From the IMG/VR virus record IMGVR_UViG_3300023210_000210, positions 1 through 24,600 of that record: 24,600 bases of DNA, one strand, 5' to 3'. Position numbers and translations under genes: made by a program. The notes beneath the pieces were generated by a model, which did not search any database, had not been told where the DNA came from, and saw only the letters and a list, made by a program, of their open reading frames with translations. Source of the stretch: a virus. How positions within the stretch are numbered: the stretch's first letter is position 1; the number at the start of each line of letters is the position of its first letter. Of the stretch, positions 7,997-23,671 are shown in pieces.

Positions 7997-9472
7997 TTAC
8001 GCTGCTTTGAACAACACAAAGTTGTTAGCCGCTTGTACACATAAACATCTCTCAGATAAGAAATGTACTTGCATTGCATCTAAGTCAGAAGTGTAAGCAC
8101 CACCAACAGAACCAGTGATCCAAGACTTCATTCTTCTATCATCCGCTTCAGAAGCTCTGTAACGAGTGTGTAAGAAAGGTCGTCTAATGTTCTTACCTAA
8201 CATTTGATCGTAAACTGTTGAAGTTCCAGCAGGAACTAAAACACCATCAATGTTATCAACTAGACCTCTTGTAGAAGCATCGTTAAGGTATTTCCAGTCA
8301 GTTTTGTAGAAATCATAAGAACCTCTTCTAAAACCAGAGAATCCAAAATTTAAAGCCATATCAGCTTCATTATTGAATAACCCGTAAGAAACAGCTTGAG
8401 TAGAAGAGTAACCTCCACCAGCTTGAGCACCTATCATGTCATCAAAATCAAGAGCAGTAGATCTAGATAAGAATAACATGTTTTCTTCAATTGCACCTTG
8501 CTTGTCAAGATTCTTAAGAACCTCATCAAAATCGCTAATTGCACCAGCACCAGGAGCTGCAGCACCAGCAAAACCAGCATATACATTTCCTCTTTCTTCG
8601 ATTGCAGCGAATAGACCTTCAGTACCTTTATAGTTGTCACCAATTAAAGATGTACCAGCAGCAGCTAATTCACCTTCTACCATAGCCATTTCAAGGTAAT
8701 CTTCAAATCTTAGTCTTGTTTCAGACTCAGCTTTTAAATACCATAAATAACCAGACGTACCATCTTCAGTTGCAACTTCAACCCAACCAATTTGAGCAGT
8801 GTCAGAACCGTTTATTTGGTACTTGTCTTTTATGATTATTGGAGAGTTATGAAATTGTTTAAAAGTAGGCTCAACAGAACCTTCCATTCCGTTAGTACCT
8901 TTTTTAAACTCAGAACCATAAACAAACATGTCAACAGCAGTTGTTCCAGTAAGACCAGCAGGTAAAGCATCAGCCGCATAACCTTTACATTCAAACTTAA
9001 CTGCAGCAGAAGCTCCATCAGCAACTTCATTACCAGCAGCATCTTCTACTCTAGTAACTAAAACTTTGTAAGTAACTAGTTTAGTAGCACTGTCAACTAA
9101 CAATACTGTTTGGTTTTTTCTAACAGCTATGTTAGTGTTACCAGCAGGTAATGTTGGTGTTACAGTATGTATTGCACCAACCGTAGCAATGTTTCCAGCT
9201 AAACCTTTATATGCAATGTGTAATCTATTTTGTTCAGACCAAATTACTTGATCAGATGTCATTGGCATTTCAGCGCCAACCATTCTTAGGAAACCACCTA
9301 TAGTTCTGTTTCCGTATCTTTCTACTTCAGCTTCATAAAGCTCTGGTAAGTATTGCTGAGCAAATGTACCTCCACCAGCACCATCAAATGCTAAGTAGTT
9401 TGATGATAATGCCATTCTATTTTGAGCTGGCACTATCGATGCAGGAAAACTCCCGCTTGTATTAAATCCCAT
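7997..9472 (-). CDS. Major capsid protein, crAss-like HK97-fold
   Basis: 491 residues. The N-terminal part contains YLPELYEAEVERYGNRTIGG, then FLRMVGAEMPMTSDQVIWSEQ and NRLHIAYKG, which I recognise from major capsid proteins of crAss-like and related marine phages. Residues about 85-215 form a Thr/Val/Ala-rich beta region probably inserted in the HK97 fold. After about residue 215 come a helical segment (RLRFEDYLEMAMVEGELAA) and Ala/Gly-rich loops. The C-terminal part has RRPFLHTRYRASEADDRRMK and SWITGSVGGAY, ending in a hydrophobic strand. There is no obvious N-terminal scaffold fusion. A separate acidic protein upstream probably serves as scaffold. The leader before ATG is A/T-rich (TAAATAAATC). 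A strong hairpin follows the gene, consistent with a very abundant transcript. Confidence 0.9.
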   Translation of the reverse strand: MGFNTSGSFPASIVPAQNRMALSSNYLAFDGAGGGTFAQQYLPELYEAEVERYGNRTIGGFLRMVGAEMPMTSDQVIWSEQNRLHIAYKGLAGNIATVGAIHTVTPTLPAGNTNIAVRKNQTVLLVDSATKLVTYKVLVTRVEDAAGNEVADGASAAVKFECKGYAADALPAGLTGTTAVDMFVYGSEFKKGTNGMEGSVEPTFKQFHNSPIIIKDKYQINGSDTAQIGWVEVATEDGTSGYLWYLKAESETRLRFEDYLEMAMVEGELAAAGTSLIGDNYKGTEGLFAAIEERGNVYAGFAGAAAPGAGAISDFDEVLKNLDKQGAIEENMLFLSRSTALDFDDMIGAQAGGGYSSTQAVSYGLFNNEADMALNFGFSGFRRGSYDFYKTDWKYLNDASTRGLVDNIDGVLVPAGTSTVYDQMLGKNIRRPFLHTRYRASEADDRRMKSWITGSVGGAYTSDLDAMQVHFLSERCLCVQAANNFVLFKAA

Positions 9473-10698: not shown

Positions 10699-13104
10699 TT
10701 ATTTTGGAGCAAATTGCTCTAATCCGAATCCTCCTAGGTTGTCATTACCTGAAGATTCGAAGTTTTTAGGTAATAAATCATTCTTTCTTTGATCTATTAG
10801 TTCACTTTGTTGTGTTGCTTGTATTTTAGTTCTTTTATCTTTTCTGTCTTCTTTAGAATTTTCATTTTGAGTTTTAGCCTGTGATTCTACTTGAGCTAGC
10901 TGCATATTAAATTGAAACTCTAATTCCATCAAACCTTTTTTTATCTCTGCTTCCTGTTGCATTTTCTGTATTGCAAATTGAGACTTACCTTGTTCTATTT
11001 GTAATGTAGTCTCAGCCATAGCTTGATTTTTCTGCAATTCAGCCATTGCTGTTCTTTCAGCTGTCTCTGCTTGAGCTTGAGCTTGAGCTTGGATGTTAGC
11101 TTGTTGAGCAGCTTGATCCTCCTTCATTTTCTTTACTCTTCTTTTCTTTAAAACTTGGTTTGCTAGCTTTATGTTATTTACTTCTCTAACATCAATTGCA
11201 TCTTCTAGATATATTTGACCACCCTGTAAAGCAACTTGTATGTTTTGTTCTAGCATTGCTTTTTCTTCCTCATCTGGCTCTAACTTTAGATATATACCAA
11301 AATCGTGAGTGTTATTATTTATCAACTCTTCTAATGTAGCAACATTATACTTAGATATACTTGATTTAAGAGACTCTCTGGTTAATGGAAACATCAACGC
11401 ATCAGATACTCTCAAAGCTATGTTCTCGCATGTCCTAAGTGTTAAATAAAGTATTGATTGTAGTATATGTCTAGTTGCAGTATTTGAATTAGCTGCAGCT
11501 AGCTTTTGTAATCCTACTAAAGCATGTTTATCCGGTGTACTACCATCTCTAGCTTCATTTAATCCGGTTACATCTCTTATCATTTGTAGATAATACTGAT
11601 AAGTTTGTATTAGCGATTGTATTTTTTGACCACCACTAGATGATTGCAGCTCTTGTATAGGTATTTTACCTCTGTTAGCATCTCCATCTTGAGTTAATGA
11701 TCTACCGATAATACTACCAGTTTGAAAATACATGTTTAAAGCTTCTGCTGGATTGTAATTTGTACCATTACCTAGATCTATTTCAGCTAAACCATCAGCA
11801 TCCACATAAACACCATCAGGAACAACTCTTGATAACACTTGTTGTATTTTCATGTGAGTTAATTGAATCATATCAGCAAAACCTGTTATTCTACTTACTG
11901 TTGACTCAATTCTACCCTTGTACATTTTTGGTGCACATATATTATAATTCATTTTAACCTTTACTGTATCAGCATAAGGTCTTGTCATATTTTCAGCTAG
12001 TTTCCATTCTAACATCTCATCATGACCTAGGATTTTAGCTCCACTATACAAAACTTCTATAGCTCTAAATGACTTATCAAAATTATCATTTTCTGGTGGA
12101 TTAAAAGTATCTGTTTTTTCTATAGACTTTTCTAATCCATTAGCTGTTTGTTTTATTTTCCAAACTTGGTTAGCGTAAGTTTTGTACTCAAAATACAATA
12201 CTTGAATATCGTTGTTATTGTCCCTACCATTCCAATTTCTAGTGTAGTTACTATTTCCAGGATATTTTTGAATTCTTTCTAACTGTTCTGATGTTAAGTG
12301 AGGAAACTGCTTCTTTAATTCTGGTAAACTTATAGACTTAACTTCTCCAACGTAATAAATATCTTCAAAGTTAGGATCTTCGGAATAAGAATATATTAAG
12401 TTAGCTGGATCAACATAATCAACAGTAACACCTTCAGATCTATTAAAACTAGTTTTATCACAAGCAATACCAAGTACTGTTAAATCTTCAGTTAATCTTT
12501 TTCTTACTAGATCATATTTATTGTTATCTAGTACATTGTTTATTAATTCTTCTTCTGCAACTTCAATAGACTGTTTATAATCCATCTGCAAATGCAATGA
12601 TAAATCATCCTCATCCTCTAACTCTAATCCTTTACCACCCTCTTTTGATATATCTAACCCTGTTAATTGTTTAGTTTTTTTAATAAGTTCTTTATGTATC
12701 ATATCCCTATGTAAAGCCTCAGCATATTGAGTTCTTTTAACTAGAGATACAGGATCTTGAGCATAAGCTGTTATTTCATAATTTCTTTGTGACATACCAT
12801 TCACTAGTATATCTACGAATTTAGGTATAATAGGTACAGGTTTCCAATCTAAATTTAAGTAAGATAAATCTCCATTAATGGAAAGCTCATCTTTGTATTT
12901 TTGTACTGATTGTTCACCTCTACTATATAACCTTAATCTGTGGAAGTTATTATAGTTAGTTGAAAATCTATCCCCATTTCTACCAGACCAAAACCATTCT
13001 CCTTCTATAGCTCTACCTACCTGGGTTCCGTACTCAAGTGTTTGTTTCTCTATATCAGGTACCACCTGATCAGGAAATGAACTATTGCTATTAGTATTAA
13101 CCAT
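10699..13104 (-). CDS. Portal protein, crAss-like
   Basis: 801 residues. The segments LRLYSRGEQSVQKYKDEL, LSYLNLDWKPVPIIPKFVD and ILVNGMSQRNYEI (about residues 55-110) are hallmarks I recognise from portal proteins of crAss-like phages. The central part (about 190-560) has mixed alpha/beta portal character, with GRIESTVSRITGFADMIQLT and RDVTGLNEARDGSTPDKHAL. The last 170 residues are a Gln/Ala/Glu-rich helical region with a QAQAQAQAE run at about 667-675, then the tail FESSGNDNLGGFGLEQFAPK. The long C-terminal helix suits the portal barrel that extends into the capsid. The ATG directly follows the TAA of the large terminase, so the two genes are tightly coupled. It forms the dodecameric DNA gate at one capsid vertex. 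Confidence 0.92.
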   Translation of the reverse strand: MVNTNSNSSFPDQVVPDIEKQTLEYGTQVGRAIEGEWFWSGRNGDRFSTNYNNFHRLRLYSRGEQSVQKYKDELSINGDLSYLNLDWKPVPIIPKFVDILVNGMSQRNYEITAYAQDPVSLVKRTQYAEALHRDMIHKELIKKTKQLTGLDISKEGGKGLELEDEDDLSLHLQMDYKQSIEVAEEELINNVLDNNKYDLVRKRLTEDLTVLGIACDKTSFNRSEGVTVDYVDPANLIYSYSEDPNFEDIYYVGEVKSISLPELKKQFPHLTSEQLERIQKYPGNSNYTRNWNGRDNNNDIQVLYFEYKTYANQVWKIKQTANGLEKSIEKTDTFNPPENDNFDKSFRAIEVLYSGAKILGHDEMLEWKLAENMTRPYADTVKVKMNYNICAPKMYKGRIESTVSRITGFADMIQLTHMKIQQVLSRVVPDGVYVDADGLAEIDLGNGTNYNPAEALNMYFQTGSIIGRSLTQDGDANRGKIPIQELQSSSGGQKIQSLIQTYQYYLQMIRDVTGLNEARDGSTPDKHALVGLQKLAAANSNTATRHILQSILYLTLRTCENIALRVSDALMFPLTRESLKSSISKYNVATLEELINNNTHDFGIYLKLEPDEEEKAMLEQNIQVALQGGQIYLEDAIDVREVNNIKLANQVLKKRRVKKMKEDQAAQQANIQAQAQAQAETAERTAMAELQKNQAMAETTLQIEQGKSQFAIQKMQQEAEIKKGLMELEFQFNMQLAQVESQAKTQNENSKEDRKDKRTKIQATQQSELIDQRKNDLLPKNFESSGNDNLGGFGLEQFAPK

Positions 13105-15330
13105 TTATTTTATTATTTTTGAAATACTACCCTCGTTATTATATTTTTTAATACCTAAGTTTACAAACTTTGTTGTTCTTTCAGCTATAGGTTTATACAT
13201 ATTTCTGTTACAACCCATTACTGCTAATCCAGAACTTATAGAAGCATCGTGTTTTGTTCTGTTATTTATATTGAATGTAGCCCAATCTTCTAGAGTTCTT
13301 TGAAAATACATATCACCATAAGAATCCTCACTTAAACCTACATAATTTTCTATATAAGTTTCTATTGCTGCTGCATGAGCTTGTTTAATGTCTTCTGATG
13401 AATTAGGTATGCCACCAATTTCTCTTTCAGTTATTGATAGTTTATTCCAGGTTTTATCTGGTCTATTCATTGAAAAACCTCTATAACCTCTTCTTTTTAA
13501 ATAGTAAAGTAATCTAGGCTTATTATTTTCTGCTAGTATAGGCATCCCATAAAAAACTAACGCCATCAATACATCTTCAAAAAATATTTCAGCAGTTGGC
13601 GGTCTAGATATATACTCTAAGAAAAAGTGATTAGGTGGAGCATCTTCCATACTGTACTTAGTTAAGCCATGTAAAGCTCCGTTAGAACCTCTTTTGTCAA
13701 CTGTTCCTGAAATATCATAACTATCACAACCAAAAGCACCTATGTGCTCGTTTGCTGGGTATTTCACTCCATTCTTTAGTATTACACGATTTTGAAGATT
13801 TTTAGGTGGAATCCATGATATTTTAAATCTACCACCGTTGTTTGGAAGAAAAATAACTCTAGTTTCTTTCACACCATTCTCCCATTGAAAATTACCTGTA
13901 GTTACATTTACAGTATTATTTAACTCTTCATTCCAATCAATTTGCTCGTATATTTTAACTAGATTAAATAAACTTTCTTGAGTTTCGTCTCTAAAAGCAT
14001 GTTTCTCAGTTCTTGGGAATTGTCTGAAAAATTCATTTAAACCATCTTGATCGCTCTTTAAGCCTTCTGCCTCATTATCCCAATATTCTATAACACCTAT
14101 ATGTATTGGTAATCCATCTATACCTTTGACTGGTTTTTTAGGTGTATCAAATACAGGTATACCAAACATATCTATATAACCTTCGTAGTTCCATTCCATA
14201 GGTATAAACAAAGAATACAAACCTGACTTCGTTTGGCCATTCTTATTCCTATTGGTTACATCTGAATTACTATATATGTCTTTAAAGTTTTGCCCTCCTT
14301 TATCTAAAGCATTTGACGTTGAACCCATCATGCACTTACCTATAATTCTTCTACCTAACCTAAGACAAGTTTTAGTAACTTTCCAGTTATTCTTTATATT
14401 GTCAGGTCTTTCCCATTTACCGCTTTCGTCGTGTGCTAACAACTTTAGTTTTTCACCATCGTAGCTGTTGTCTCCAGTGTTCTTCCAGTCAATGGTTGTA
14501 TCTAATCCATCTATCTCCTCTAACTTTTCTCCAGAATCTAATTTCCTTCTTGTTAACTTTGAAGCCGGAACTCTATACGCCAATTCAGTTTTAGGGCGAT
14601 CCATACCATCTTGTATCGGTTTGAAAAAGAACGGATAGTTAACTGATATGGGTACGACTTTATCAGTAAACATTTTCTTTGCATCAGCCCCTGTCTTTGA
14701 TAGTATGCCAAATCTAGAGTCACTTGACATTGTTGCTTGGTTGGTGAGTTCTGCAGAAGCCATAAAGGAAAATCCTGAACGTCTGTTTTTAAGGTAGCAC
14801 ATCCCGTAACACCTTTGATCTGCTTTGCAAGCTTCCCAGAAATAGAAAAATAACTTGTTTGATTCTCTATAATCGGCTGAGCCAACATCAATCTTTGACC
14901 ATTGCAAGTACATGTAGTGAGTACCAGTAATGTAGTTAGGAGTACCATTGTTATAATACCAATAACCTTCTTCTCTGTAATTAAATTCTTTTTCAATATA
15001 GTCAACCCATTTTTCTTTAAACTGTATAGGATATTGGTCCCACTCAAAAGTGCTCTTTATTTTAGTAAGTTCTTTCGGGTAAGGTTGTTTTTCCCAGTAT
15101 TGTTCGCTTTTATCTTCGCTTCGTTTAACCGGTTCATTGATTGCTGGTAAAGCAATGCGGAGGTTTTGTATTTCAATGATCTGTCCAATTTGTCCAGTTT
15201 TACTAATAACAATAAAATCGTAATCGTAATTATAACCGTATTCCCACTTTTTTAGTCTGTTACTTTTTTTTAAAACCTTAGGATTAACAACATCTTTTAT
15301 TATTTTAAATAATGATTGTTGATAACTCAT
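13105..15330 (-). CDS. terL: Terminase large subunit, crAss-like
   Basis: 741 residues: packaging ATPase plus headful nuclease. LKNRRSGFS at residues 180-188 is a deviant Walker A of the type seen in crAss-like terminases. LKLLAHDE at 295-302 is the Walker B with acidic D301 and catalytic E302. GSTSNAL at 336-342 fits the coupling motif. In the C-terminal RNase H-like nuclease, FGCDSYD at 533-539 supplies the first acidic metal ligands and is followed by a conserved-looking KRGSNGALHG. The N-terminal 150 residues hold family-typical YYNNGTPNYITGTHYMYLQW. Its ATG overlaps the preceding stop (ATGA), and the portal gene starts right after its TAA. It acts at the portal vertex to drive DNA into preformed capsids. 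Confidence 0.93.
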   Translation of the reverse strand: MSYQQSLFKIIKDVVNPKVLKKSNRLKKWEYGYNYDYDFIVISKTGQIGQIIEIQNLRIALPAINEPVKRSEDKSEQYWEKQPYPKELTKIKSTFEWDQYPIQFKEKWVDYIEKEFNYREEGYWYYNNGTPNYITGTHYMYLQWSKIDVGSADYRESNKLFFYFWEACKADQRCYGMCYLKNRRSGFSFMASAELTNQATMSSDSRFGILSKTGADAKKMFTDKVVPISVNYPFFFKPIQDGMDRPKTELAYRVPASKLTRRKLDSGEKLEEIDGLDTTIDWKNTGDNSYDGEKLKLLAHDESGKWERPDNIKNNWKVTKTCLRLGRRIIGKCMMGSTSNALDKGGQNFKDIYSNSDVTNRNKNGQTKSGLYSLFIPMEWNYEGYIDMFGIPVFDTPKKPVKGIDGLPIHIGVIEYWDNEAEGLKSDQDGLNEFFRQFPRTEKHAFRDETQESLFNLVKIYEQIDWNEELNNTVNVTTGNFQWENGVKETRVIFLPNNGGRFKISWIPPKNLQNRVILKNGVKYPANEHIGAFGCDSYDISGTVDKRGSNGALHGLTKYSMEDAPPNHFFLEYISRPPTAEIFFEDVLMALVFYGMPILAENNKPRLLYYLKRRGYRGFSMNRPDKTWNKLSITEREIGGIPNSSEDIKQAHAAAIETYIENYVGLSEDSYGDMYFQRTLEDWATFNINNRTKHDASISSGLAVMGCNRNMYKPIAERTTKFVNLGIKKYNNEGSISKIIK

Positions 15331-15605
15331 TTCTTCCTAGTTTCTGGTGATATAGAGAATGATCTCTCAGGTTTGTTTGCTTCCTTTGGTTTATCTTCTA
15401 ACAACGCTTCTTCTTCCTCCATTCTATGGAGTATTTCAAACGCATCAAATATAGCTAGTTTCTTTGTAGCTGCAGCATTTTTTAGTCTATCTGCTGTGAC
15501 ATCATCATCCGTGTTGACTATAGGTTCTTTAGCAACTTTAATCAATTCCTCAACTGCTATTCGCCCAGCTTGGATTATACTCTTTTTCGTTTCCTTCGTA
15601 TTCAT
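15327..15605 (-). CDS. Candidate terminase small subunit (92 aa)
   Basis: 92 residues, almost all helical: SIIQAGRIAVEELIKVAKEP, then TADRLKNAAATKKLAIFDA and an acidic FEILHRMEEEEALLED helix, ending in a short disordered tail. It sits immediately upstream of terL with a 4-base overlap. Small helical proteins in this place are often the DNA-recognition subunit of terminase, but no clear helix-turn-helix can be asserted. The start used is the first in-frame Met and lies 56 bases inside the preceding gene. Starting at the next Met (in the FEILHRM helix) would remove most of the protein, so the long overlap seems real. Function is inferred from size and position. Confidence 0.55.
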   Translation of the reverse strand: MNTKETKKSIIQAGRIAVEELIKVAKEPIVNTDDDVTADRLKNAAATKKLAIFDAFEILHRMEEEEALLEDKPKEANKPERSFSISPETRKK

Positions 15606-16155
15606 GTGTTAGTGCAATATCATTAGATTTCATACAATATAAACGTTCACTACCAAAATAAAACTCAAACTCTGAATTAGGTGTAAACGTTATTAATTCT
15701 CCACTACTTATGCCAATACTTTCAAGTTGTTTATTAGAGTACTTAATAATACCCTTTAGTGGAACTTCTTTTTCTAGACTAAAATCCTTATCATGGATTA
15801 TAGGTTTAACAAAACAATAATCTAAGTTAGTGTTATACTCATCATTGTTTTTATACAAATATATCTGAGTAATATTACAAAAATACATATTATCTTTAAA
15901 ATAAGAACCGCTATTCTTTTCATCACCTCTCATATCGTAGTACCTTCTAAATATGTTGTGATGAACAACAACTTCATCACCTTTTTTAATAGGTGTATTA
16001 TAAGCTTTTGGTGTAGATATGACTATAGCTCTCTTGCTAACGAAGTTGTGGTTTTCAACACTAGTATTAACTATAAGTTCGTTTTCTCCTATTTTTTTAA
16101 CATTTTCATATCTACCATTCAATGGCTTTATTATGAAATTATATAAACCTTGCAT
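15550..16155 (-). CDS. Protein with two tandem GroES-like folds
   Basis: 201 residues with two halves that each follow the order of elements in co-chaperonin GroES. Half one (about 3-102): strand YNFIIKPL, a loop with NELIVNTS that could match the mobile loop, strand KRAIVIST, then PIKKGDEVVVH (compare VKVGDIVIF of GroES) and NMYFCNITQIYLYK at the place of the C-terminal strand. Half two (about 112-185): CFVKPI, KGIIKYSN, ISSGELITFTP, and ERLYCMKSNDIAL, which resembles the EVLIMSESDI ending of GroES. The conserved-looking tail NEKEYNPSW follows. It lies in the packaging operon, far from groEL-groES, and its last 56 bases overlap the next gene. The fold call rests on motif order only; it may be a structural or assembly factor that borrowed the fold rather than a working co-chaperonin. 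Confidence 0.65.
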   Translation of the reverse strand: MQGLYNFIIKPLNGRYENVKKIGENELIVNTSVENHNFVSKRAIVISTPKAYNTPIKKGDEVVVHHNIFRRYYDMRGDEKNSGSYFKDNMYFCNITQIYLYKNNDEYNTNLDYCFVKPIIHDKDFSLEKEVPLKGIIKYSNKQLESIGISSGELITFTPNSEFEFYFGSERLYCMKSNDIALTHEYEGNEKEYNPSWANSS

Positions 16156-16923: not shown

Positions 16924-19134
16924 TTAAGGTACGTCTGTCTCTCTATCAACTTCGTCCATATTTAAAGATAAAGCATTTGAAGTGCTATTACTTGCATCTC
17001 CTACCCTGTCCTCTATTGTCATATTATTTGATAAGCCACCACCTGTGTAATTTGGTGCGTTACCTTCTAAATCTGATATTGTCATATTTGCACTTGTTCC
17101 TGTTGCACTTCCTACATTATCAGGAACATTCCAATTAGTGTTAAATGTAGCATCTTCGCCCATTCTCCAATGTGCAGTAGCACCATCTATTCTTGCGGGT
17201 TCTCCACCATTGTAAAGAGTAGTTACTTGTTCTTGAGTTAAAGCGGTAGTACTCCATATTGCTAATTCGTCAATGTTTCCATTATAGAAATCATTTCCGC
17301 CATATCTAGGTGCAGTTGCTATTTTAAAGTCTACTGTTGGGTCATTTACTGAATTACCTGAAAGACTGTCTATCAATGTTTGTGTTAATGTATCTTCAAC
17401 TCCATCTACATAAAATTTAACTCCACTTGCACTTTCTGAGCCATCATAGGTAACCACCACATGATGCCATAACCCATCTACAAAAACTGTTCCCAATCCT
17501 TTTTTCTGTATTGTACCTATGGTAGAGCCTCCCGAGTCCACTCCCACTATCCTAAATTGTAAACGATTTTGTTGAGTACCTGATGTTATAAAACCAATAT
17601 CCCAACCTCTCATTGCATATAGTGGGGCATTTCTTTTTCTTTTCTTTCCCGCAATAGTGTAAATTCTTGTGTGTGATGCAGGAGTTGAAATATTTACCCA
17701 AGCAGATAATGTCATTGGTGTTTGACCATCATTGTGTAAAACATCACCACAATTAATTTCATCGTCCACACCATCAAAAGCAAATGACCTTGTAGAATAG
17801 TTACTTAATGCAGAATTATCAACTAACCAATTATCAGTAAAATAACTTTGTTCACTTCTCCAATATCCAACAGGTGAAAGTGAAGATAAATCGTTGGGAG
17901 TACCTGAATTGTAGATTGTAGTTATATCTGAAGAAGTTAAAGCTGAGTTCCATACTGCAACCTCATCAATGTTTGCACTAGTAAAATAAGTTCCAAGTAA
18001 TGCACCAATTTGGAAATTATTACCTGCCGTAGCACTAAGTGAAGTTGGTACACCACTTAAACTATTAGCAACCTTTACCCCATCAACATACAATATACAC
18101 CTATCAGCTGTAATTATAGAACCATCATATACACCAGCAAAATGATGCCAATTTGTATCGTGAGCTAATGCAAAAGATGCATTACTATAAGCCCCATTTC
18201 TTGGGGAAAAATATACATTACCATCTGACCACCAACTAAGCCAAATACCATTAGTTCCTGTTATCGAAGAACCAACTACTAACTTCTCAGTAGAAATAGG
18301 TTTTTTACCCCAAAAAGAAAAAGTTAAAGCACTTGCAGAATTAATTTGAGTAATAGCACCACAATCTACATAATCGTCAATTCCATCATACTCAAAACTA
18401 TAGTTTGAAAATTTGGTTTTGTTCTCATTGTTAGGGATTAGCCATTGTGGAGATTTCCAAGTTCCGTTATCTCCGTTTCTGTACCAATTAGTTAAACCAG
18501 CTAAAGCACTTAAATCAGTTGGTGTGCCTAAATTATAAATATCTGTAATTTCTAATTGAGTTTTAGCAGTAGTGAAAATTGCCACCTCGTCTAAGTTGCC
18601 AAAAAATTCATTTGTAGTATAGCCCCCAGCTTTTCCTATTTCAGTTGAATTTCCTTTAGAAGTATATAATGAAGTTAAAGCAAAACCTGAAACTGTGTTT
18701 GTTTGTAGTACACCATCTATATAAACTTTAAGTTTGTCTGCGTCACTTACCTCTGTTTCATCATAGACCATAGCAATATGAAACCAAACACCAACAGTAA
18801 AAGTAAAATTTGATGTATTCATTAATCTTAAAGTTCCACTTGAGTCAGCAAGAAAAATATCTATTTTATTAGTAGATTGCTTAAATAAATATTGCTTAAA
18901 ACCTGTTGAGTAACAAGACATCAGATAGTGATAACTTGTAGTAATTGAACTATTAGCCCAAATTGACCAAGTTGCACTAGTTACATTATCTAAAGTAGTT
19001 ACATCACCACAATCTACATAATCGTCAACTCCATCTAATGCTAACGAATAGGTGTTAGTAAAACCGCCACCACCACCTCCTCCTGCGTTTACACGGTTGG
19101 TACCAATCATGTTAAAGTTAGGTAGTATATTCAT
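16924..19134 (-). CDS. Three-repeat LamG / concanavalin-A-like virion adhesin
   Basis: 736 residues. Three copies of a LamG-type jelly-roll domain are clear, each opening with a motif like LDGVDDYVDCGD: about residues 29-205, 244-412 and 448-644. Each also has a strand such as KVYIDGVLQ, LYVDGVK or FYVDGVED, and closes with IDEVAVWN / LDEVAIF / IDELAIW plus an IYN-GTP segment. The N-terminus has seven Gly in a row (about 18-24), a flexible arm. The last 57 residues hold three short repeats: NMTISDLEGNAPN, NMTIEDRVGDASN and NMDEVDRETDVP. LamG domains in phages usually bind polysaccharide, so a host-attachment fibre or a carbohydrate-binding virion decoration is likely. ATG directly follows the stop of the preceding 94-residue gene. 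Confidence 0.88.
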   Translation of the reverse strand: MNILPNFNMIGTNRVNAGGGGGGGFTNTYSLALDGVDDYVDCGDVTTLDNVTSATWSIWANSSITTSYHYLMSCYSTGFKQYLFKQSTNKIDIFLADSSGTLRLMNTSNFTFTVGVWFHIAMVYDETEVSDADKLKVYIDGVLQTNTVSGFALTSLYTSKGNSTEIGKAGGYTTNEFFGNLDEVAIFTTAKTQLEITDIYNLGTPTDLSALAGLTNWYRNGDNGTWKSPQWLIPNNENKTKFSNYSFEYDGIDDYVDCGAITQINSASALTFSFWGKKPISTEKLVVGSSITGTNGIWLSWWSDGNVYFSPRNGAYSNASFALAHDTNWHHFAGVYDGSIITADRCILYVDGVKVANSLSGVPTSLSATAGNNFQIGALLGTYFTSANIDEVAVWNSALTSSDITTIYNSGTPNDLSSLSPVGYWRSEQSYFTDNWLVDNSALSNYSTRSFAFDGVDDEINCGDVLHNDGQTPMTLSAWVNISTPASHTRIYTIAGKKRKRNAPLYAMRGWDIGFITSGTQQNRLQFRIVGVDSGGSTIGTIQKKGLGTVFVDGLWHHVVVTYDGSESASGVKFYVDGVEDTLTQTLIDSLSGNSVNDPTVDFKIATAPRYGGNDFYNGNIDELAIWSTTALTQEQVTTLYNGGEPARIDGATAHWRMGEDATFNTNWNVPDNVGSATGTSANMTISDLEGNAPNYTGGGLSNNMTIEDRVGDASNSTSNALSLNMDEVDRETDVP

Positions 19135-19419
19135 CTAGTATATAGCTAATAAGTTACCATCACCTGAGACTGTTCCAGTCGCTGATCTCACTTGAGTAAC
19201 TAATATAGGCATAAAAGTTCCTGCTGCCACCGCTTTGAAGGTGACTTGATTACCACTTTCTAGTGTGCATTCTATATCTGTTGGTCCAACACCTACATAT
19301 AACGCTACTCCTCTAGTTTCTGTTCCCGGTATTACTGCGTTGTAAGTTATTACTGCGGCATCATGCCCCATTACTCTAACTTGTGCGGCCATATTACCTT
19401 GTACTCCTCTTGCTCCCAT
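19135..19419 (-). CDS. Small beta-rich, probably virion-associated protein (94 aa)
   Basis: 94 residues, beta-rich and low in charge: AQVRVMGHDAAVITYNAV, GVALYVGVGPTDIECTLES and NQVTFKAVAAGTFMPILVTQ. It ends TGTVSGDGNLLAIY, with a hydrophobic C-terminus. It abuts the LamG gene (stop TAG, then ATG), which suggests it is produced with the adhesin and may form its base or a spike. No catalytic motif is visible. Confidence 0.6.
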   Translation of the reverse strand: MGARGVQGNMAAQVRVMGHDAAVITYNAVIPGTETRGVALYVGVGPTDIECTLESGNQVTFKAVAAGTFMPILVTQVRSATGTVSGDGNLLAIY

Positions 19420-19424
19420 TTTAT

Positions 19425-19892
19425 TTATTTTTTATCTTTGTTTATAAATACTTTTTCTGCTCCTCTTGAGCCAAAGTAAGCTACGTATACCGTAACTAGT
19501 AGTGTTTGTAGTAAATCTATCCAAGCGGCTTTCATATCAAATATTAATTGCACTGAATCAAATACTATAAATAATGTCATACATACTGTTAGGTATATCA
19601 ACGCTAAAGGTCTTGTGTTTTTAGATAACCAAGAATCTGATTGCATGTCATACTTCCACCTGTCAGAGATATTTTTCATCTCTTCCATATCCAAGTCTAA
19701 CAACCTCAACGCTTCTTCTTTATCTTTTGGAGGTAAAGTTTCGTCTTTACTGATAAGGTTTTTAACAACACCAAAAGCTCCTTGATCAGGTAATAAGTCT
19801 CCAATACTATCTAGTATTTTAGGGGCTTTCTCTTTTAAAAAAACCCCTACTTTAGTGTCTTTAAATTTCTTTCGATCTTTCTTTTTAGGCAC
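19425..19892 (-). CDS. Holin of the GTA-type 3TM family
   Basis: 155 residues. The basic cytoplasmic N-terminus (first 14 residues mostly Lys/Asp/Arg) leads to an amphipathic region with LISKDETLPPKDKEEALRLL. The family signature DRWKYDMQSDSWLSKNTRPL (77-96) then introduces two hydrophobic segments, about 96-112 and 123-141, before a basic tail. The signature matches my memory of the family named Holin of 3TMs, for gene-transfer release (PF11351). The product would permeabilise the inner membrane at lysis. It belongs with the nearby M15 peptidase, though a basic Gly-rich gene and a small membrane protein lie between them. Only two segments are clearly hydrophobic here. Confidence 0.82.
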   Translation of the reverse strand: MPKKKDRKKFKDTKVGVFLKEKAPKILDSIGDLLPDQGAFGVVKNLISKDETLPPKDKEEALRLLDLDMEEMKNISDRWKYDMQSDSWLSKNTRPLALIYLTVCMTLFIVFDSVQLIFDMKAAWIDLLQTLLVTVYVAYFGSRGAEKVFINKDKK

Positions 19893-21415: not shown

Positions 21416-21862
21416 TTATCTTGTTTTATCTTTGTTTACATTTTGAATGGACTTAGATAATACTTTATCACTATAACTATTTCCCTTCATAATTCTATTT
21501 GCTCTATTTGTTTCTGGGATGTCTTCATCACCCACTATAATTCGGTATATTCTGCTTATTAACTGTTTGCACTTGAATGAAACTTTATACATGTTGTACT
21601 TCTGAGTAGTCCTGTTCCTATGTCTCCAGACAACTATCCAATCTTCCTTCAATAATCTGTTCCAGCGCCTGTTGTCCCAGCTATAAGAGTATGTACCTAT
21701 TTTAAAATCTTCTATAGTAAAGAAATCTAAAGCATTTAAGTATAATAACAGCTCTAAGTCCGCATCTCTAAGATTACACGTTTTACATGCCCATTTACGT
21801 ATAATACGGTAATGTTTTAAAAAATGCATGTCTTTTAAGTCACCTGCATCTATTTTTTTCAT
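21416..21862 (-). CDS. Winged-helix-like DNA-binding candidate (148 aa)
   Basis: 148 residues. LRDADLELLLYLNALDFFTI (31-50) followed by SYSWDNRRWNRLLKEDWIVV (59-78), a basic turn (RHRNRTTQKYN) and YKVSFKCKQLISRIYRIIVG (92-111) follow the helix-helix-wing-helix order of MarR-like winged helices; WDNRRWNRLLKEDW would be the recognition helix. CKTC at 26-29 is a short Cys pair but no full zinc site is seen. The C-terminal tail is basic and disordered. Its ATG overlaps the groES stop (ATGA), so it is co-transcribed with the chaperonin genes. It may regulate late genes or bind phage DNA, but the DNA-binding role is inferred from pattern only. Confidence 0.55.
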   Translation of the reverse strand: MKKIDAGDLKDMHFLKHYRIIRKWACKTCNLRDADLELLLYLNALDFFTIEDFKIGTYSYSWDNRRWNRLLKEDWIVVWRHRNRTTQKYNMYKVSFKCKQLISRIYRIIVGDEDIPETNRANRIMKGNSYSDKVLSKSIQNVNKDKTR

Positions 21863-22119
21863 AAAACTATTACTATATCACTTTCTTTTATAACCTTGTA
21901 ATCACAATCTTTAATATCAACTTTAAAACCAGCATGTTTGTCATAATATATATTATCACCATTGCTAACTCCTACAACATCAGTTCCTATGTTTATAACT
22001 TCACCTTCTCTATACCTTATGTCTTCTCTAGTCTTCTCTGTTAACTCTAAACCACCACTAGTTACAGTTGCGTTGCTTTTAACCTCTTTTATAACTACGT
22101 ATTTACCTATTGCTTTCAT
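21859..22119 (-). CDS. groES: Phage co-chaperonin GroES
   Basis: 86 residues, shorter than bacterial GroES (97 in E. coli). KYVVIKEV (6-13) is the first strand. TVTSGGLEL (18-26) matches the mobile loop that docks on GroEL, with GLEL in place of the usual GIVL. REGEVINIGTD (37-47) matches the RGEVLAVG strand, VSNGDNIYYDKHAG (51-64) the VGDIVIF segment, and YKVIKESDIVIVL (74-86) the C-terminal strand. The protein caps the GroEL ring during folding. It follows groEL, overlaps it by 17 bases, and overlaps the next gene by 4, so the order groEL-groES is the reverse of bacterial operons. Acidic Glu in the loop may tune affinity to the phage GroEL. Confidence 0.9.
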   Translation of the reverse strand: MKAIGKYVVIKEVKSNATVTSGGLELTEKTREDIRYREGEVINIGTDVVGVSNGDNIYYDKHAGFKVDIKDCDYKVIKESDIVIVL

Positions 22120-23671
22120 CAGTTCTTAAATTATTGATTACACAATCTGTAGATAATATAGTAGTTGCTACTGAAGCCGCATTAAGTAAAGCACTTTTTG
22201 TTACTAATAGAGGATCAATTATTCCAGACTTTACCATATTTACTGTTTTACCTGTAACCACATCTAAACCTCTACCTTTTATTTTTGGTGCTTCGTAGTC
22301 ATTTATACCAGCGTTTTCTAATATTGTTTTATAAGGCGCTTTTATCGCGTCTAACAATACTTGTTCACTTGGGTTTTTTGCTTTAATGCTTTGTGAAGCA
22401 TTTAATAAGGCAATTCCCCCACCTGGGACTATACCTTCTTTTATTGCGGCTTTTGTAGCACAAATAGCATCTTCTACTCTATCTCTCTTTTCTTTTAGCT
22501 CTACATCTGAATTAGCACCAACTTTAACAACAGCTACTTTAGCGTTTAATCTAGCTAACCTTTTTTCATACCTAATTATTAGGTTTGGATTTTTAGTCTC
22601 CTCTATTTTATTTTTTATAGAGTTTACAACGTCTTTAACATCTTCAGGTATTGATTCAAGCTTTAATAACGTGTTTTCTGTACTTGTGATGGATTTTAAG
22701 CATTCTCCTAAATGTTCAGGCTGTATAAGATCCATGTCATCTCCTAAGTCTTCATTTATAACAGTAGCACCAGTAAGTAGAGCAAGATCATTTAGTATTT
22801 CTTTTTTACTTAAGCCGTAAGGTGGTGGATCAATAACATTGACTTTTAAATTGCCTTTTATTTTATTCATAGCTATCATTGCTAAAACCTGAGGCTCTAC
22901 GTCTGCAATAATAAGTATAGGTCTTTTAGCTTTTAAGTCTTTTATAATGTACTCTAATATACCTTGTATTTTTCTTTGATTGTCTACCTTACTTTCGATT
23001 ATTAAAACCAATGGTTTTTCTAATTCCGCATTACCGGTTTCTTGGTTTGTTATAAAGTGAGGGTTTTTCAATACTGAATCATACTGTATGCCTTCTATTT
23101 TTTCAACAATTGTCTCTGATCTTTCGTGTGTTTCCATCATTACGATACCTGTTTCATTAACCTGATTAAAAGCCTCAGCAATAGTTTCACCTAAGCTGTT
23201 GTCATTATTGGCTGATATTGTAGCAACTTGTTTTATTACCTCTCCTTTAACTTGTGAGGAAGAGTTTTCTAAGTATTTAACTACTTTTTCTACAGCCGAA
23301 TTTATACCGTTTTTAAGATCTCTAACATTAATGTTTTTATTTGATTCAGACATTGCTTGATTTAATATTGAGTGAGCAAGAACTGTTGCTGTAGTTGTTC
23401 CATCACCAGCTTCTTTAACAGTTTTTCTAGCTGCTTCTTTCAATAACTTAGAACCCATGTTTTCTACTGGATCTAACAAAACAACACTGTTAGCAACAGT
23501 TACACCATCTTTTGTTATCTGTGGATTACCCATGTTATCTTCTAGTATAACACATTTACCACCAGCCCCAAGTGTGGAACTAACTGCTTTAGTTAGTTTA
23601 TCTATACCACCTAATATTTTACTCTTAGCATCCTCTCCAAAATTGAGGTGCTTTACTATTGATTCATTCAT
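22103..23671 (-). CDS. groEL: Phage chaperonin GroEL
   Basis: 522 residues. The ATPase site looks intact: KDGVTVA (54-60) with Asp55, GDGTTTATVLA (89-99) with Asp90, GGG at 417-419, and RVEDA (398-402) with Asp401, matching E. coli D52, D87 and D398. The usual GPKGRNV segment is changed to GAGGKCV (35-41). In the apical client-binding face, the DRGYLSPYF of E. coli is DSVLKNPHF here (198-206), so two tyrosines are lost. The C-terminus stops at NNLRTDESNR and lacks the GGM-repeat tail. It would form the folding ring for phage proteins, perhaps capsid or fibres. The leader is a run of pentamers with no Shine-Dalgarno. Family certain; whether it works with its own groES or the host's is not known. 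Confidence 0.95.
   Translation of the reverse strand: MNESIVKHLNFGEDAKSKILGGIDKLTKAVSSTLGAGGKCVILEDNMGNPQITKDGVTVANSVVLLDPVENMGSKLLKEAARKTVKEAGDGTTTATVLAHSILNQAMSESNKNINVRDLKNGINSAVEKVVKYLENSSSQVKGEVIKQVATISANNDNSLGETIAEAFNQVNETGIVMMETHERSETIVEKIEGIQYDSVLKNPHFITNQETGNAELEKPLVLIIESKVDNQRKIQGILEYIIKDLKAKRPILIIADVEPQVLAMIAMNKIKGNLKVNVIDPPPYGLSKKEILNDLALLTGATVINEDLGDDMDLIQPEHLGECLKSITSTENTLLKLESIPEDVKDVVNSIKNKIEETKNPNLIIRYEKRLARLNAKVAVVKVGANSDVELKEKRDRVEDAICATKAAIKEGIVPGGGIALLNASQSIKAKNPSEQVLLDAIKAPYKTILENAGINDYEAPKIKGRGLDVVTGKTVNMVKSGIIDPLLVTKSALLNAASVATTILSTDCVINNLRTDESNR

Follow-up and report, generated by a model that had tools for sequence, protein, structure and literature searches.

The two-domain co-chaperonins Cpn20 and Cpn23 of Chlamydomonas form mixed rings with a single-domain subunit, and this tandem type of co-chaperonin has been termed chloroplast-specific in a review (PMC5780408). 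Why chloroplasts place a two-domain co-chaperonin on a ring of seven-fold symmetry is a recognised puzzle. Among phages, the chaperonins of OBP, AR9 and EL are able to function as single rings, into which that of EL splits (PMC9598537, PMC7185714), and phages with GroES only are common, their GroES working with host GroEL (PMC7185714). The phylogeny of viral GroEL has been tied to gene order (Marine et al. 2017, as quoted in PMC9611531). Here we describe a phage locus whose late block probably specifies a group I chaperonin system that is particular to the phage and has three parts: a GroEL, its own GroES and a tandem GroES-like protein (tGroES) that would take part in the lid. The proposal builds on homology, a domain make-up taken from a structural model, synteny, co-occurrence, a long phage ancestry and the retention of ATPase residues.

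The window (the whole stretch of DNA analysed, a complete 24.6-kb IMG/VR virus record) comes from a member of a widespread marine podovirus-like lineage, the host of which, judged from relatives, is probably Bacteroidota. Its late block lies on the minus strand and runs in the order groEL, groES, winged-helix gene, small genes, M15 endolysin, holin, a three-LamG protein, the tandem GroES-like gene, terminase, portal, capsid candidate and more structural genes. The terminase large subunit (TerL; 13105-15330, minus strand; phrog_6681) marks the phage group, and a small ORF (15327-15605, minus strand; 92 aa) stands between it and tGroES. The portal protein (10699-13104, minus strand; phrog_6547) is followed by a 491-aa virion structural protein (7997-9472, minus strand; phrog_13704), whose place in the gene order makes it the likely major capsid protein; it is also a candidate for folding by the chaperonin. 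The 736-aa LamG protein (16924-19134) contains three LamG/ConA-like lectin domains and probably serves in adhesion or receptor binding. An open frame of 144 aa (22386-22820, plus strand), running antisense to groEL, is regarded as a by-product of groEL coding. Only 2 of the 22 window genes checked have a Shine-Dalgarno-like motif, a scarcity that is usual in Bacteroidota.

The original prediction singled out a groEL-first chaperonin pair in which groEL overlaps groES by 17 bases and groES overlaps a winged-helix-like gene by 4. The order and both overlaps are present in the window, the longer one spanning 22103-22119 and the shorter one consisting of ATGA. The same order was found in related phage contigs, namely in 39/39 IMG/VR loci of the window's terminase group that have both genes, with groEL-groES overlaps of 1, 4, 14, 17, 20 or 23 bases across these 39 loci. 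In the cellular control, groES preceded groEL in 73 of 78 loci, the reverse order occurred in 0, and groES was not detectable nearby in 5. The groEL-first order of the window lineage is more than chance. Other phage GroELs are mixed, with 34 in the order groES-groEL, 27 without a detected groES and 36 in the order groEL-groES (a few phages being counted more than once through duplicate records); almost all of the 36 groEL-first cases belong to the window's clade or to the groups of elemo, Panino and MW202828. The reversed order is an old phage trait rather than a new one, the link between gene order and viral GroEL phylogeny having been reported by Marine et al. (2017; via PMC9611531), and taken alone it is chiefly a marker of the lineage. 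Two Cellulophaga phages, Calle_1 (L011) and phi38:1 (L374), have the same terminase/tGroES block and carry the pair in the replication module as groES-x-groEL, indicating that the pair has been moved or re-ordered within the group.

The phage GroEL (22103-23671, minus strand; 522 aa) is a group I-like chaperonin with a full-length Cpn60 domain architecture. It matches PF00118 over positions 1-487 of 490 (199.6 bits vs. a cut-off of 34.3, E = 1.1e-58) and phrog_5725 ("chaperonin groEL"), and passes the subfamily models NF009487 and NF000592; with TIGR02348, the canonical GroEL equivalog, it scores 449 bits, below the cut-off of 582. In the numbering of E. coli GroEL and GroES, in which single positions are provisional, the residues for ATP binding and hydrolysis (T30, G32, D52, D87, T89-91, D398, and D495) are conserved in 40/40 GroELs of the clade, and P33 is replaced by A in 39/40. 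The changed apical face proposed in the original prediction is a fixed property of the lineage: L234Q occurs in 40/40, V264M in 38/40, Y203H and V263A in 32/40 each, and Y199L in 30/40, so that the client- and GroES-binding surface is altered lineage-wide. The hinge glycines G374-G375 have become A-K (G375K in 37/40), 36/40 carry a deletion of S463/V464, which lie at the ring-ring interface, and no clade member (0/40) ends in the GGM tail that 37/38 hosts possess. Because inter-ring loop residues and the GGM tail are missing, the phage GroEL is predicted, from these absent contact residues, to act as a single ring.

The single-domain co-chaperonin GroES (21859-22119, minus strand; 86 aa) matches PF00166 with 48.6 bits (cut-off 21.1, E = 8.3e-13) and phrog_3188 ("co-chaperonin GroES"), and its mobile loop, GGLEL, retains the hydrophobic edges. 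The GLEL sequence had been put forward as a sign of co-evolution with GroEL, a role that it does not sustain, being peculiar to the window phage; among the 23 other relatives sampled, the loop reads GGL[LIMF]L in 22 and GGLLI in one. The roof beta-hairpin is deleted (it falls in a gap when aligned with E. coli GroES), and it is partly reduced in Bacteroidota hosts too. The neighbouring gene (21416-21862, minus strand; 148 aa; phrog_17028) gave no match in a Pfam search. Its AlphaFold2 model (pLDDT 89) is a winged helix, as had been anticipated, and among solved folds the MarR family ranks top with a probability of 1.00, but with E = 4e-3 and a TM-score of about 0.5. A winged-helix gene is also found near groES in very divergent phages, on either strand (L006, L007, L005, L374, and L375). 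It is convergent with groES in elemo and in MW202828, where it is annotated as "repressor protein", and is still near groES in the GroEL-less phage phi13:2. The winged-helix protein is possibly a regulator of the chaperonin genes.

A second co-chaperonin gene, overlooked in the original prediction, lies just upstream of the terminase (15550-16155, minus strand; 201 aa; phrog_13932, "co-chaperonin GroES"). It is distinct from groES and not the same gene annotated twice, since the window contains both, separated by 6 kb. Compared with a GroES profile, the C-terminal half of tGroES matched with 97% probability and the N-terminal half with 77%, and 50 segments of unrelated phage protein families, used as controls, reached at most 2%, excluding a chance likeness of the N-terminal half to GroES. 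Profiles of the two halves did not match each other. In other phages the Pfam Cpn10 model matches the C-terminal part of tGroES, exceeding the cut-off in phi38:1 and Calle_1. According to the AlphaFold2 model (pLDDT 86, pTM 0.80; rows from the phages collection were left out of the AlphaFold2 input alignments), tGroES is composed of two GroES-like domains in one chain. The best Foldseek match of this model in the PDB is 7ekq chain R, the "Cpn20 co-chaperonin subunit" (chain Q being "Chaperonin 23"), with a probability of 1.00, E = 2.7e-5 and TM-scores of 0.55/0.56; the match spans both domains over 204 alignment columns, with an rmsd of 6.7 that leaves the relative domain placement uncertain. 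Matches 2-36 are all co-chaperonin chains of 7ekq or GroES/Cpn10 proteins, including T4 gp31, and a library of viral protein structures contains full-length relatives, including "chaperonin cpn10" of Cellulophaga phi18:3.

The two modelled domains differ in that a loop-like segment (residues 12-41) is found in the N-terminal domain only, the C-terminal domain having a short turn in its place. In the window clade, the C-terminal domain would be unable to bind GroEL in the usual way, since it has no mobile-loop-like segment. The first domain of the phi13:2 protein contains a textbook mobile loop, ESGLEL, and a clade-specific motif, NPSWA, is found towards the C-terminus of tGroES. A PDB search with the tGroES profile gave no match to plastid Cpn20 at E ≤ 1, and with no sequence kinship found we do not class tGroES as a member of the Cpn20 family. 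Among 295 cellular genomes of one class, a single sequence resembled the C-terminal part of tGroES, weakly and over part of its length (L377, contig 59, 3654-3962); it contains an internal stop and is possibly a prophage remnant.

Examination of gene neighbourhoods shows that tGroES is followed by TerL in 143/143 loci, lying 114-670 bases upstream, and that no TerL locus with enough upstream DNA is without it. Among 24 long contigs picked by their GroEL (another, at 5.6 kb, was too short to be included), tGroES is present in 7/7 with the order groEL-groES vs. 0/17 with the host order or GroEL alone. Where 8 kb or more of upstream sequence is available (26 tGroES loci), the pair is present in 20 and groES alone, at the contig edge, in 1; in the remaining 5, groEL lies farther upstream in 3, and the other two represent one contig that ends early. 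All three genes are present in Panino, elemo, Calle_1, phi38:1 and genome MW202828, and all three are absent from Gundel_1, as judged by comparison of annotated isolates. Cellulophaga phage phi13:2 has a single GroES (8446-8694) and a divergent tGroES (19067-19669), and its genome contains no GroEL gene, so that a phage-encoded GroEL is not a strict requirement for tGroES; the phi13:2 lids presumably use the GroEL of the host. Phage phi14:2 and crAss-like relatives have GroEL without tGroES, and a faint single Cpn10-like ORF near the terminase. This suggests that a terminase-linked co-chaperonin extends beyond the window clade. The faint single-domain ORFs are located a few genes upstream of the crAss-like terminase (L012, 7767-8156; L018, 6816-7226; L022, 8650-9048).

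Evolutionary distances of the three proteins also co-vary. With TerL distances controlled for, the partial correlations among 24 clade members are 0.66 for GroES-tGroES, 0.62 for GroEL-GroES and 0.52 for GroEL-tGroES (permutation p = 0.0005 each); if Panino and MW202828 are included, these outliers dominate. The co-evolution of GroEL and GroES suggested in the original prediction is consistent with the second value, which persists after removal of the terminase signal. The partial correlation of GroES with the winged-helix protein is 0.28, though these genes mostly overlap or abut. Because the winged-helix gene overlaps groES and co-varies less, physical linkage is insufficient by itself to account for the co-variation of GroES and tGroES, and as a sole cause it is weakened by this control. 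The co-variation is consistent with membership in a shared complex, without proving it.

In the mechanism that we propose, the late block would be transcribed late in infection, with groEL and groES translationally coupled, as their overlaps suggest. A phage GroEL ring, probably single, would be capped by the phage GroES and may fit host clients or host GroES poorly. Its clients would include the 491-aa capsid candidate and other late proteins, judging from gene position and from the precedent of T4 gp31. Each tGroES chain would contribute two GroES-like positions, and a loop-like segment that could bind GroEL is present in the first of these only. The simplest lid would be a mixed ring of GroES and tGroES with seven GroES-like positions, similar to chloroplast Cpn20 with Cpn10; alternatively, tGroES may form a double-layered homo-ring and thereby a taller cage. 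We offer only tentatively the fuller version of this idea, that a large lineage of marine phages independently evolved a chloroplast-type mixed lid, in which an asymmetric seven-position cap closes a single-ring GroEL tuned to capsid and late proteins.

Other functions for these genes can be considered. tGroES might be a packaging or head-assembly factor, such as a terminase-portal adaptor or a scaffold, that reuses the GroES fold, leaving folding to the groEL-groES pair. Its invariable position beside TerL, distant from the pair, fits such a role, as do the lack of a mobile loop in its second domain, the NPSWA motif and the Cpn10-like ORF just upstream of TerL in crAss-like phages. We nevertheless regard this as rather unlikely, since tGroES is confined to phages that also have a single GroES and its distances follow those of GroES beyond the terminase effect; the Cpn10-level score of its C-terminal domain in phi38:1 and Calle_1, the mobile loop in phi13:2 and its absence from the proteins labelled structural in the phi38:1 record likewise favour a co-chaperonin. 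In another scenario, the phage GroES, tGroES or both would retarget host GroEL to the capsid protein in the manner of T4 gp31, the phage GroEL having a side activity or decaying. The phi13:2 genome, which retains both co-chaperonins without any GroEL, is what this scenario would produce, and the many GroES-only phages that use host GroEL (PMC7185714) lend it a precedent. It is made improbable by the intact catalytic sites in all 40 clade GroELs, by GroEL being present in all loci that span the whole region, one of them possibly excepted, and by the GroES-binding apical residues, which have changed together with the phage GroES. The three-part system remains our preferred reading.

As to the origin of the pair, a further rival account is a recently captured and then rearranged host groESL operon. 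The group I homology agrees with such a capture, and the best solved-structure match of the pair's chaperonin is a reconstructed ancestral Fibrobacteres-Chlorobi-Bacteroidetes protein. However, the window GroEL is 37-42% identical to 78 cellular GroELs, with no phylum standing out, and the synteny is kept across a diverse marine clade. Trees of both proteins, as called for in the original prediction, separate the pair from every host sampled. In the GroEL tree, which has long branches, 21 groEL-first phage rows form a branch apart from hosts (SH-aLRT 87; this key node is not starred and not decisive). One further groEL-first sequence falls inside Bacteroidota hosts, so that two changes of order are needed; it comes from a 5.6-kb "viral" contig (L366), which represents either cellular DNA or a second emergence of the order. 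The GroES tree again groups these 21 rows together, Calle_1 being the sole addition (support 97, starred). The near-identity to one host clade that a recent capture would leave was looked for and is absent, the best cellular identity being 42%, and a recent event is refuted by these identities and both trees. An old capture, rearranged since, is compatible with them. The pair, as judged from its sequences, is a long-standing phage lineage of its own. The earlier suggestion that it was assembled in a phage is therefore upheld as regards a separate phage lineage and the lack of recent capture, but assembly in a phage is not favoured over an ancient, rearranged host operon; both fit, because the trees join the same phages and Calle_1 and phi38:1 have the arrangement groES-x-groEL.

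Tandem or double GroES is mentioned in chloroplast work only among open-licence papers in PMC, and we found no description of a two-domain co-chaperonin in phages, of the architecture it shares with Cpn20, of its strict link to the reversed pair, or of a refaced GroEL predicted to be single-ringed; these features are apparently undescribed. If the reading is true, they would provide a second, apparently independent case of a two-domain co-chaperonin, in culturable phages with small genomes and defined clients that make it testable: elemo grows on Flavobacterium, Panino on Maribacter and phi38:1 on Cellulophaga. It would also suggest that one abundant marine phage group has a full folding machine of its own, fixed in the late block, rather than merely borrowing that of the host.

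Comparison with known systems places the locus between several of them. The group I chaperonins of virioplankton (Marine et al. 2017, in the part available via PMC9611531) are likewise divergent GroEL/GroES pairs, common at sea, with an order that follows phylogeny; the present analysis adds the tandem co-chaperonin by the terminase and its strict association with the reversed order, together with the alterations of the apical face, the hinge and the inter-ring contacts. Flavobacterium phage elemo and Maribacter phage Panino resemble the window in having groEL before groES, a winged-helix gene nearby and tGroES by TerL. Their GroELs are only about 37-38% identical to that of the window, their winged-helix gene is on the opposite strand, and in Panino an additional small ORF separates groEL from groES. 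As in the window phage, the Chlamydomonas chloroplast (7ekq) combines two head-to-tail GroES-like domains in Cpn20/Cpn23 with a single-domain partner, Cpn10; tGroES differs from Cpn20 in its single mobile-loop-like segment (in the phage clade), in the location of its gene by the terminase and in showing no sequence match. T4 gp31 is, like tGroES, a phage co-chaperonin of the GroES fold (Foldseek matches 1g31 and 2cgt) and likely directed to the capsid, but it has a single domain and uses host GroEL, whereas the window lineage has its own GroEL and two co-chaperonins. OBP, AR9 and EL also encode GroEL-like ATPases, which are only remotely similar to the window GroEL (22% identity for the OBP chaperonin), and the single ring that they share with the window phage is for the latter a prediction. 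These three chaperonins work without a co-chaperonin, whereas the window lineage has retained two co-chaperonin genes.
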